The notes beneath the pieces are model-generated. The model saw only the letters and a list, made by a program, of their open reading frames with translations, was not told the origin of the DNA and ran no database searches. Of a DNA stretch of 64,000 bases, positions 1,900 to 56,195 are shown piece by piece. The DNA lies in NCBI RefSeq assembly GCF_029953285.1, contig NZ_JASAOI010000038.1:62001-126000 (forward strand), written 5' to 3'. Position 1 is the stretch's first letter, and each line of letters begins with the position of its first letter. The DNA is from Yinghuangia seranimata. GTDB taxonomy: Bacteria > Actinomycetota > Actinomycetes > Streptomycetales > Streptomycetaceae. The translations under genes and the position numbers were made by a program.

Positions 1900-2394
1900 T
1901 CACACCACCTGGTGCAGCCACCGGACGGGCGCGCCCTCGCCGGCGTACCGGAAGGGCTCCAGCTCGTCGTCCCACGGCTTGCCGAGCAGCTTCTCGATCT
2001 CGTGCTGCAGGTCGACCTCGCCGCGCGCGGCGCGGCCGAGCACGGCGCGCAGCCGGTCCTCGGGGATGAGGATGTCGCCGTGCGCCCCCGTGACCGCGTG
2101 GAAGATGCCGAGGTCGGGGGTGTTGCTGTAGCGCTCGCCCTCGGCGCCCGGGGACGGCTCCTCGGTGACCTCGAAGCGCAGCAGGTGCCATCCGCGCAGC
2201 GCGGACGCCAGCTTCGCGGCGGTGCCCGGCTGGCCGTGCCAGGACATTTCGGCACGCAGCATCCCCGGAGCGGCCGGTTGGCGGACCCAGTCCAGGCTCA
2301 GGCGCGCGCCAAGAACGCCCTGTGCGGCCCACTCGACGTGGGGGCACAGCGCGCGCGGCGCGGAGTGCACGTACAAGACTCCACGTGTCGTCAC
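1900..2394 (-). CDS. DUF3145 family protein
   Basis: This 164-residue cytosolic protein resembles the actinobacterial DUF3145 family, conserved next to fabF in Streptomyces and without an assigned reaction. It has no signal peptide or membrane segment. The N-terminal half contains the aromatic-rich TRGVLYVHSAP opening, and the C-terminal half ends in a hydrophobic W-L-H-Q-V-V. The start is a GTG with GGAGG 7 nt upstream. It converges on fabF and diverges from the SGNH lipoprotein gene. The conserved link to fatty acid genes suggests a role near lipid synthesis, but that is guilt by association only. Confidence 0.85.
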   Translation of the reverse strand: MTTRGVLYVHSAPRALCPHVEWAAQGVLGARLSLDWVRQPAAPGMLRAEMSWHGQPGTAAKLASALRGWHLLRFEVTEEPSPGAEGERYSNTPDLGIFHAVTGAHGDILIPEDRLRAVLGRAARGEVDLQHEIEKLLGKPWDDELEPFRYAGEGAPVRWLHQVV

Positions 2395-2909
2395 TGGGAC
2401 CTCCAGGCTAAGGACGAGGTTCGCCTTCCCCAGCGGCCTCGGTTCCTGCCTTGGTCACCCAAGCGACGGCGGGTGCCGTCGTGCGTCGTCTTCTGCTGTC
2501 GCCCTGCTCCTCCGACTGGCCGCCGGACCGATCGTCCGTATGGCCGGGTGTGCTCCTACGAGCGGTTTGCGCCATTCATTGTGCCTCACGCTTCACGGAA
2601 GCACCACGCGAAACAATCACTCTCCGTATGCGCAGTAAGGGATGCACCGGATCTGGGCCTTCTAAACGTCACTCACAGTCTCGGAAGTGTGAGCCACTGC
2701 ACTCACCCTGCCCCGTGTCCGGCGGCCGCACCCCTACGCGCCCCCGCATTCACTCGAAGGGATGACATACCGTCATAAGCGGCTCCGTACCGCAACACCC
2801 CCCTGGACGAAGCCACTTCGAGAGTAGGGGGCGCGGCGCGACGGCGCAGGAGGTATAGGCAGGCATTGTGGCGGTCAATCCGCCCGGGGCGGAGACGAAA
2901 GGGGAGATC
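2395..2909. other. Divergent intergenic region without a convincing gene
   Basis: About 500 bp separate the DUF3145 gene from the lipoprotein gene, and it must hold two divergent promoters. Open frames here have poor codon bias and no recognisable protein. A CTCACA/TGTGAG inverted repeat (2672-2677 and 2688-2693) could be an operator, but the evidence is weak. An AGGAGG at 2848-2853 precedes an alternative GTG start at 2868 for the downstream gene. Confidence 0.5.
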
Positions 2910-3938
2910 GTGGGCAAGGGGCGGGACGGCGCCGGGCGTTCGCGGCGCGGGATGGGCGGGGCGGCGGCGTTAGCCGCGGCGCTGGTGGCGGTCGCGGGGT
3001 GCACGTCGGACTCGGGGACGGGGCCCCGGGCGGTGTCCCAGGCGGCCGCCCAGGAGCAGAACCAGGCGGCGGGGCCCGTGGGGCAGCCGTCCGCGGGCGC
3101 GGCCGCGAACGGCGCGGTGCCGGGCGCGCGTCCGACGTCCCGCGCCCCGGCGGGAACGTCGGCGCCGGCGCCGGCGGGCCAACCGTCGGCGAAGCCCACG
3201 GGGCCGTTCCCGAAGCCGCACTCGATGGCGGCGCTGGGCGACTCCATCACCCGCGGCTTCGACGCCTGCACGATGCCGCTCAAGGACTGCCCGGAGAAGT
3301 CCTGGGCGACCGGCGGCGACGTCGACAGCCAGGCCAAGCGCCTCGGGCTGCCCTCGTCGGCCGTGTTCAACGACGCGCGCACCGGGGCGCGGATGACCGA
3401 CCTCGCCGACCAGGCCCGCGCCGCGGTCGGGCAGCGCGTCGAGTACGTCACGGTCCTGCTCGGCGCGAACGACGCGTGCCGCGACGACGAGACGACGATG
3501 ACGTCCGTCTTCGACTACGAGCGGCAGCTGCGGGCCGGGCTGCAGATCCTGCGGGACGGCCTGCCGGGCGTGCACGTGATGGTCGTGAGCGTCCCGGACG
3601 TGGGGCGGCTGTGGGAGGTCGCGCACGGCGAGCAGATGGCCCGCCTGGTGTGGTCCGCGGGCGTGTGCCGGTCGATGCTGGCGGACCCCGAGTCCGGCAA
3701 GCCGGACGTGATCGCGCGGCGGCAGCGGGTCCGGGACCGGGTGACGGCGTACAACGACGTGCTGCGCCGGGTGTGCGGCGAGTGGACCGGCCAGTGCAAG
3801 TACGACGGCGGGGTCCTCAACGCGCACAAGTTCGGCAAGAACGACCTGAGCCGCTGGGACTGGTTCCACCCGAGCGGACAGGGCCAGAACGTGATAGCCG
3901 ATCTGACGACCCGGGCCGGCTTCCGTTGGCAGGAATAA
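2910..3938 (+). CDS. Secreted SGNH/GDSL hydrolase lipoprotein with a TTA codon
   Basis: From the GTG at 2910 the protein has 342 residues. It carries a basic N-region, a hydrophobic core and a lipobox V-A-G-C with the lipidated Cys31, so it should be exported and anchored to the membrane. A Pro/Ala/Gly-rich linker of about 70 residues precedes the hydrolase. SGNH family motifs are visible: GDSIT with the nucleophile Ser112, a GAND block, and a C-terminal DWFHP holding the catalytic Asp and His. The substrate (a lipid or an acylated polymer) cannot be told. The leucine at 2970-2972, in the signal peptide, is TTA, the codon read by bldA tRNA in Streptomyces. A GTG at 2868 with AGGAGG 14 nt upstream is an alternative start. 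Confidence 0.88.
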   Translation: MGKGRDGAGRSRRGMGGAAALAAALVAVAGCTSDSGTGPRAVSQAAAQEQNQAAGPVGQPSAGAAANGAVPGARPTSRAPAGTSAPAPAGQPSAKPTGPFPKPHSMAALGDSITRGFDACTMPLKDCPEKSWATGGDVDSQAKRLGLPSSAVFNDARTGARMTDLADQARAAVGQRVEYVTVLLGANDACRDDETTMTSVFDYERQLRAGLQILRDGLPGVHVMVVSVPDVGRLWEVAHGEQMARLVWSAGVCRSMLADPESGKPDVIARRQRVRDRVTAYNDVLRRVCGEWTGQCKYDGGVLNAHKFGKNDLSRWDWFHPSGQGQNVIADLTTRAGFRWQE

Positions 3939-40690: not shown

Positions 40691-40852
40691 TCACCGCGCT
40701 TAACTGACGGCCCGTCATGGCACGTGTCACCAGCCGGAATACGTCCGCCACGCGCACCCGCTCCATCCTGTTCGAATCTGTCCCGTTTACGACAGGCGAC
40801 GGGTCAGCAGACCAGTCAGCCGACCAGACCTGCGAGAGGGGGTGACGCCGTC

Positions 40853-54635: not shown

Positions 54636-56195
54636 TCAGGGCAGCGGGAAGGCGGCCTCCGGCAGTTCCCCGAGCAGCCGTTCCGCCAGTCGGCGCACGG
54701 CCGGCAGCTCGCCGAACAGGTCGACCGCGCTCTTGACGGTGCGCCGCAGCCGGGTCGTCAGCCGGTCCGAGCGCACCCGCGACGCGAGGTCCAGCGCCCC
54801 GTGCACGGCCTCGCACGCCGCCTCGGGCTCGCGCTCCAGCACATGGACCGACGCGAGCCCGATGCGGCTGAGCGCGAGCGAACGCTGGTACTCGGTCGCG
54901 TGCTCGAACAGCGCGACCGCCTTGGCCAGCGGTCCGCGCGCCCGGTCGGGCGCGCCCGCGCCACGGTACGCCAGGTCGCGGTACGCGTGTCCGGCCTCGG
55001 CGTTGAACTCGGCGGTGCCGAAGTAGCGGATCCAGTCCGGCTCCTCGCTGTCCGCCGCGTCCGCGGTGAGCTGCTCGGCGAGGGACATCGAGCGGCGGCA
55101 CTTGTCGGCCTGGCCGAGTCCGGCGTGCGCGCGGCCCTCGACGGCGTACAGCATCGCCTGGGTGCGCGGGCCGGCGCTGTCGCGGGAGCCGTACTGCGCG
55201 AGGTGGATCAGCTCCAGCGCGTCGGACGGCCGGTCCAGGTGGATCATCTGACGGCTCATCACCCCCAGCACGTTGGCGCCCAGCGGCCGGTCGCCGGCCT
55301 CCTTGGCGGCGTGCAGCGCGAGCACGAAGTACTTCTGCGCGCCGGGCTGCATGCCGACGTCGTACGACATCCACCCGGCCAGCAGCGCCAGTTCCGCGGT
55401 GAGCCGGAACAGCCGCTCGCGCACCAGCGTCGGATAGGTGTCGTGCAGCAGGTCGGTGACCTCCTGGAGCTGCCCCACCACCGCCTTGCGGCGCAGGCCT
55501 CCCCCGCACTGCATGTCCCAGCCCCGGAACATCCGGACGGTCGCGTCGAGTTGGTCGAGCTCACCGGCGCCGATCCGGCCTTTGGCGGGCGCCGCGCGCG
55601 GCGGGGACACGGGCGTCGGCGTGGGGGCCAGCCAGCGCTGCATGGGCTCGACGAGCGCGGGCCCGGCGGACAGCGCCAGCGACGCGCCCAGGAAGCCGCG
55701 CCGGCCCAGCATGAGGTCGCTGCGGGAGAACTCGCCGAGCAGGTCGACCACCGACTCGGGGGCCCACGGCAGGTCGACACCGGACCCGGTGAACAGCGCG
55801 CCCGGCTCCCGGAAGCCGAGGTCCTCGACGGCGACGACGCAGCCGAACTGCTCGCTGAACAGCTCGGAGATGATGCGCGGTATCGGGTCGCGCGGCTGCT
55901 CCCCGTCCAGCCACCGGCGCACCCGCGAGGTGTCGGTGCTGACGTGCAGCGCGCCCAGCCGGCGCGCGCGGCGGTTCACCTGGCGGGCGAACTCGCCCTT
56001 GGACCACCCGGTGCGCTCGAACCACGAGGCGAGCCGCTCGTTGGGCTGCTTTCCGCCGGGGAGCCGGGGCAGCGTGGTGAAGGCGGGCAGGGCGGCGTCG
56101 TAGCGCACGCCAGGCTGCCGGGTGGTGTCGGCCGCGGGGTGGATGACGGACGGGCGTTCGGCCTGTTCTTCGGCTTCGGTTTGTGCGACTGTCAC
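54636..56195 (-). CDS. nsdA: Differentiation regulator NsdA-like
   Basis: This 519-residue protein resembles NsdA of Streptomyces coelicolor, a negative regulator of sporulation and antibiotic production. The N-terminal part holds a helix-turn-helix-like region (ERLASWFERTGWSKGEFARQ, then VNRRARRLGALHVSTDTSRV). The C-terminal half is rich in helical repeats of TPR type (for example AHAGLGQADKCRRSMSLAEQ). The start is the GTG at 56195 with GGGGGAG 7 nt upstream; an in-frame extension to 56504 is not part of the family. In S. coelicolor nsdA adjoins amtB; here they are 14 kb apart. Confidence 0.88.
   Translation of the reverse strand: MTVAQTEAEEQAERPSVIHPAADTTRQPGVRYDAALPAFTTLPRLPGGKQPNERLASWFERTGWSKGEFARQVNRRARRLGALHVSTDTSRVRRWLDGEQPRDPIPRIISELFSEQFGCVVAVEDLGFREPGALFTGSGVDLPWAPESVVDLLGEFSRSDLMLGRRGFLGASLALSAGPALVEPMQRWLAPTPTPVSPPRAAPAKGRIGAGELDQLDATVRMFRGWDMQCGGGLRRKAVVGQLQEVTDLLHDTYPTLVRERLFRLTAELALLAGWMSYDVGMQPGAQKYFVLALHAAKEAGDRPLGANVLGVMSRQMIHLDRPSDALELIHLAQYGSRDSAGPRTQAMLYAVEGRAHAGLGQADKCRRSMSLAEQLTADAADSEEPDWIRYFGTAEFNAEAGHAYRDLAYRGAGAPDRARGPLAKAVALFEHATEYQRSLALSRIGLASVHVLEREPEAACEAVHGALDLASRVRSDRLTTRLRRTVKSAVDLFGELPAVRRLAERLLGELPEAAFPLP

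Follow-up and report, generated by a model that had tools for sequence, protein, structure and literature searches.

A TTA codon in the signal peptide of a putative SGNH hydrolase lipoprotein gene of Yinghuangia, compared with the TTA codon of adpA

The closest described counterparts of the gene analysed here are the bldA-dependent TTA genes of Streptomyces, with adpA as the classic bldA target, and the GDSL/SGNH lipoprotein hydrolases of the Streptomycetaceae (PF00657/PF13472). The published counts of TTA genes stand at 147 for S. coelicolor in the accessible part of PMC2000904, and at 51-505 per Streptomyces genome, with an average of 177, in the accessible part of a survey of 213 species (PMC10327506), which also describes most TTA codons as poorly conserved. 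The portions of PMC4255298 available to us state that earlier analyses likewise found poor TTA conservation and list 29 genes or clusters in which TTA is frequent, so that conservation of the codon does occur in other genes. The same portions report a bias of TTA toward the 5' end of genes in streptomycetes, place the adpA TTA between the domains of the protein in the streptomycetes analysed, and give the adpA of Catenulispora acidiphila as TTA-free. Two roles have been proposed for the adpA codon, namely that of a translational switch and that of a codon that paces translation at the interdomain linker, and the evidence outlined in the consulted section of PMC7875965 is mixed: AdpA is absent when the UUA tRNA is missing, whereas alleles with TTA and with TTG are reported to be alike in timing. 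Some TTA genes are also expressed in bldA-deficient strains, according to an excerpt of PMC4932002.

The window, by which we mean the whole stretch of 64,000 nucleotides that was analysed, comes from Yinghuangia, a member of the Streptomycetaceae, and the bldA framework is therefore relevant to it. Over 3,990 bases the orthologous locus of the congener G001 is identical to Yinghuangia soli, and that of G020, which belongs to another genus of the family, agrees at 100% with Embleya scabrispora over 3,984 bases. An open reading frame at 2868-3938 (+ strand) contains an in-frame TTA (Leu) codon at 2970-2972, which is codon 35, 21 or 7 depending on whether translation begins at GTG2868, GTG2910 or ATG2952. 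The Shine-Dalgarno pairing is strongest for GTG2910 (-12.0 kcal/mol), followed by GTG2868 (-11.2 kcal/mol, with a spacing unusually far upstream) and ATG2952 (-3.2 kcal/mol). GTG2910 is a possible start of the gene (2910-3938, + strand, 342 aa), and GTG2868 is likewise possible, comparison with the congeners being compatible with both. The N-terminal region, VGKGRDGAGRSRRGMGGAAALAAALVAVAGC, displays the positively charged n-region, the hydrophobic region and the lipobox with its Cys that are characteristic of bacterial lipoproteins; by sequence and motif rule the signal peptide spans 2910-3002 (+ strand) and ends in a V-A-G-C lipobox with the Cys codon at 3000-3002. Both the sequence and the alignment place the TTA in the hydrophobic part of this signal peptide, 10 codons ahead of the lipobox Cys, so that it lies within the signal peptide for all three candidate starts, as the earlier note on this DNA had claimed. 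Being 3' of any plausible start, it belongs to genuine coding sequence, as is required of a bldA-dependent gene. The description of the hydrolase as secreted in that note needs to be changed: the lipoprotein-type signal peptide makes the product a predicted membrane-anchored lipoprotein, and in view of the VAGC lipobox we rejected a freely secreted enzyme. Judged by its sequence, this product is a putative SGNH/GDSL hydrolase, with matches to PF00657 (4.6e-15) and PF13472 (1.5e-13) whose scores exceed the cut-off, and with the GDS, GxND and DxxH blocks of that family. In the nine-sequence alignment A1 of orthologues S112, in catalytic block I (D-S-I; 3240-3248, + strand), N187 (GAND) and D317/H320 (DWFHP) are invariant, and from the customary roles in the SGNH family we take S112, N187, D317 and H320 to be the catalytic residues. 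A search of NCBIfam assigned the hydrolase to no family, and by sequence it matched none of the solved structures at E <= 0.001.

Orthologues of the hydrolase were collected from 15 of 41 genomes, the remaining 26 giving no match at E <= 0.001, and from a scan of named genomes, which recovered no relative with the single hydrolase protein and from which 80 loci were kept with alignment A1, these being the best 80 of at least 447 named relatives. The resulting 95 loci, the window's own included, amount to 92 distinct ones, with identical genes in the pairs L003/L157, L075/L158 and L076/L216. A divergent (antisense) DUF3145 gene, which in the window occupies 1900-2394 (- strand; PF11343, 1.8e-75), lies upstream of the hydrolase in all 95 loci, the best 80 of at least 447 relatives included, so that the loci are syntenic. 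Across the same set (again with the best 80 of at least 447) a simple motif rule recognised a lipobox in 93 of the 95; the exceptions, L081 and L195, provide no aligned site for the TTA comparison. In its catalytic motifs, lipobox and DUF3145 neighbour the gene is like the other GDSL/SGNH lipoprotein hydrolases of the Streptomycetaceae, and it differs from them in being the only one of the 95 loci, best 80 of at least 447 relatives included, with TTA at this site. The earlier note, which read the codon as marking a developmentally controlled gene, had named absence from orthologues as the outcome contrary to its proposal, and this is what we find: TTA occurs at the site in none of the 94 other loci (91 distinct; best 80 of at least 447 included). 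The genus comparison rests on three Yinghuangia genomes by genus label, i.e. two congeners, in which the site is occupied by GCG (L002) and GCC (L003), both coding for Ala, and in which neither open reading frame contains a TTA. With the codon missing both from these congeners and from the rest of the 94 loci examined (best 80 of at least 447 included), we rejected the idea of a conserved developmental marker; TTA at the same site in orthologues, as in the conserved switch of adpA, is not a feature of the hydrolase. The residue at the site varies among Leu, Ala, Val, Ser and Thr, which indicates that the position is unconstrained. Furthermore, 92 of the 94 other loci, with the best 80 of at least 447 included, are free of TTA throughout the interval scanned, which opens 45 codons ahead of the lipobox Cys and extends to the 3' end of the gene. 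The TTA of L180 lies 21 codons 5' of its best start and is probably untranslated. L081 (genome G025, family f2) is a distant orthologue with a TTA at codon 12, in a signal peptide in which no lipobox was recognised.

Within the window there is one TTA among 52 called genes (18,592 codons, spanning 55,880 of the 64,000 bases), which bears out the earlier statement that the window holds no other in-frame TTA. At the rate observed outside the window 1.54 would be expected, with a probability of 0.79 for at least one, and we accordingly dismissed the notion that the codon is unusual as the sole TTA in 64 kb. Additional TTAs at 40700, 40787 and 34078 fall in open frames 5' of neighbouring genes as called, and would add to the total only if translation of these genes began further upstream. 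Gene calling relied on a codon-score program of our own making rather than on a published caller, and TTA carried zero weight in its scoring. For the wider count that the earlier note had suggested we used 81 stretches with a total of 1,631,671 bases, window included, which corresponds to some 17% of a genome of 9.8 Mb (113 contigs, ~98% complete); these stretches were picked by contig, partly around tRNA genes, and form a non-random sample. They contain 38 TTA codons in 463,862 codons, distributed over 35 of 1433 genes (2.4%), a share of the same order as the published Streptomyces counts in the accessible parts of PMC2000904 and PMC10327506. Scaling 38 per 1.63 Mb to the 9.8 Mb genome gives roughly 230, and given this number the hydrolase TTA, as a single-gene codon, carries little weight. 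Of 36 TTA codons 16 fall within the first 50 codons, a region that accounts for 14.5% of Leu codons (p = 1.5e-5); the corresponding shares for the other rare Leu codons are 19.6% for TTG, 25.4% for CTT and 15.1% for CTA, and the 5' bias of TTA exceeds that of these three pooled (p = 0.0014). In this own-genome sample TTA is also ~3.5x more frequent than predicted from TTG x CTA / CTG (38 versus 10.7), an excess that fits either active retention or heterogeneous gene origins. The base 3' of TTA is C in 24 of the 38 cases, and G in the hydrolase gene. We considered whether TTA is found preferentially in lipoprotein genes and rejected this, as lipoprotein-like genes number 34 of 1420 overall and 2 of 33 among the TTA genes with a closed start, with no significant enrichment (Fisher p = 0.19). 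A second lipoprotein-like gene of this genome (L056, 14641-16227, - strand) also has a TTA in its signal peptide, at codon 3.

The components of a bldA system were sought in the same genome. ARAGORN identified a tRNA-Leu with anticodon TAA (UAA) on contig C11 of genome G000 (L044), and a DNA search gave one match in this ~98% complete genome, so that the host of the TTA gene has a single tRNA-Leu(UAA) gene, as is expected where genes are bldA-dependent. The tRNA sequence is 100% identical in all three Yinghuangia genomes, and as a query it matched 26 of the 26 genomes searched, the anticodon having been read in the own genome. In the window itself ARAGORN reported, at 54886-54976, a tRNA of undefined type whose anticodon has two bases; it lies inside a called protein gene on the - strand and is probably spurious. 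An adpA orthologue with DJ-1/PfpI and AraC-type domains and one TTA is located on contig C111 of genome G000 (1352-2341, - strand); its product has a match (8.7e-60) to the AdpA DNA-binding domain of known structure. The gene adjoins one of the exonuclease family, presumably resembling the oligoribonuclease gene that neighbours adpA in Streptomyces. Of the claim that the TTA is a bldA marker, one part thus holds, as the genome has both a tRNA-Leu(UAA) and a TTA-bearing adpA; the part concerning conserved developmental control does not, because TTA is absent at the site in the 94 other loci (best 80 of at least 447 included) and its frequency is at the base rate. Like the bldA TTA genes of Streptomyces, the hydrolase gene has a single TTA near its 5' end and a host in which one UAA-reading tRNA gene was found; it differs from them in that its bldA-dependence is here a prediction and that the TTA is not common to the two congeners. 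The adpA gene, a conserved bldA target with the same type of codon in the same genome, retains its TTA across the clade (7/7), unlike the hydrolase.

Taken together, we consider it likely that the TTA arose recently and in a lineage-specific manner, as a tolerated change confined to the species, with translation of the gene probably dependent on bldA to some degree and no conserved developmental switch; the word "recently" relates to a small sample, since there are only two congeners. As a finding, the hydrolase TTA is an unremarkable example of a type already described. That UUA limits expression of the hydrolase is probable by extension of the general bldA rule, to which exceptions are published (PMC4932002, in the excerpt consulted). 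On this reading the SGNH-hydrolase lipoprotein gene, ancestral and syntenic in the Streptomycetaceae, would have gained one signal-peptide TTA on this Yinghuangia lineage, and the resulting UUA would be decoded solely by tRNA-Leu(UAA). While the charged tRNA is scarce, ribosomes might stall in approximately the opening 21-35 codons, with the signal peptide yet to emerge, and would yield little hydrolase protein; upon accumulation of the tRNA the lipoprotein would presumably be synthesised and anchored normally.

Three other explanations can be weighed against a tolerated change of this kind. One is that the TTA was selected as a species-specific gate, such that the hydrolase is made only upon accumulation of the bldA tRNA in the transition or stationary phase or during aerial growth. 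The genus does keep both the tRNA and a TTA-bearing adpA, the early position of the codon agrees with the general 5' bias, and L081 of family f2 has an independent signal-peptide TTA at codon 12; nevertheless, neither congener nor any other orthologue of the set (best 80 of at least 447 included) has the codon at the site, the rest of the genome has an equal base rate of TTA genes, and two signal-peptide TTAs among 92 distinct sequences (best 80 of at least 447 included) come close to the base rate of 2.4%. We therefore view such selection, and with it an adaptive role of the hydrolase TTA, as rather unlikely. Even less credence is due to the idea that a slow codon in the signal peptide delays elongation and so aids targeting independently of development, a role of the type that PMC7875965, in the section consulted, proposes for the adpA TTA: the 34 lipoprotein-like genes of the sample do include two with signal-peptide TTAs, but their share among TTA genes is not a significant enrichment (2/33, Fisher p = 0.19), and the orthologues are TTA-free at the site, with export presumably functional in them. 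Least probable by our estimate, and very much so, is an artefact of annotation or assembly, in which the real start lies 3' of the TTA or bases were called incorrectly. There is a precedent in S. coelicolor SCO6717, in which the TTA precedes the probable start (available part of PMC2000904), but a start after the TTA would here leave hardly any signal peptide before the Cys of a lipobox that is recognised in 93 of 95 loci (best 80 of at least 447 included), and the ribosome-binding pairing at the upstream starts is strong.

Comparison of the adpA loci (L105, L263 (own genome), L264-L301, L304 and L305) revealed a difference in the position of their TTA. In all seven Yinghuangia and Embleya genomes the codon is at core position 36, within the N-terminal DJ-1/PfpI domain (residues 2-169), and the interdomain-linker position 202 is CTG. 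The 20 other Streptomycetaceae genomes examined all have TTA at position 202; among these, G013 (L301) is partly aligned with position 36 unreadable, and L274 has a second TTA close to the 3' end. Family f3, which belongs to the same order, has TTA at position 36 in 5 of 13 genomes and at position 202 in none of the 13, and the adpA of the single f2 genome has TTA at neither position; G035 (f3), which yielded a distant paralogue only, was dropped, and G040 gave no adpA match. Of 37 Leu columns common to the seven adpA genes 12 are codon-identical, with TTA as one of the 12, so that identity alone is not unusual and is noteworthy here because TTA is so rare. A FastTree phylogeny of the adpA core unites Yinghuangia and Embleya in one clade (support 1.0), beside the f2/f3 outgroups (0.88), which leaves room for an old TTA at position 36 later replaced by a linker TTA, or for separate gains. 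As the adpA TTA is kept in these genera while lying outside the linker, its position fits a switch better than a folding role specific to the linker, and the Yinghuangia/Embleya adpA genes provide a natural test between the switch and linker-pacing ideas. It is conceivable, though we think it rather doubtful, that the bldA switch has been rewired in Yinghuangia and Embleya, with relocation of the adpA TTA and separate acquisition of TTA by peripheral targets such as the hydrolase, resulting in species-specific gating by the tRNA. Our literature search found nothing on the adpA TTA of Embleya or on bldA in Yinghuangia, and among the papers listed by a broader query none combined Embleya with adpA; AdpA evolution is reportedly the subject of Rabyk et al. 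2018, cited in PMC10327506, and the relocation may already have been described.

Upstream of the hydrolase gene a conserved 12-bp intergenic element, TGACATACCGTC, is present at 2763-2774 (+ strand). The pattern TGAC(A/G/C)TACCGTC occurs between the DUF3145 and hydrolase genes in 75 of 95 loci, or 73 of 92 distinct ones (best 80 of at least 447 included), and was not found in this interval in the remaining 20; by chance 0.02 occurrences are expected in the window. In seven genomes we counted 88 exact copies of TGACRTACCGTC, from 3 to 23 in each, with one match for a reversed control pattern. Inspection of 30 of the 88 sites placed 19 in intergenic regions and 11 within called genes. Three of the 19 intergenic sites (L325, L331 and L332) adjoin genes that by eye resemble those of acyl-CoA ligases or enoyl-CoA hydratases, L331 and L332 being apparently one locus in two Yinghuangia, which hints at a putative regulator of lipid metabolism acting through the 12-bp element. 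Also 5' of the hydrolase, at 2672-2706 of the window, CTCACAGTCTCGGAAGTGTGAG is followed by CCACTGCACTCAC in a region that is largely conserved in the aligned Yinghuangia and Embleya loci; it contains inverted half-sites and is a candidate operator.
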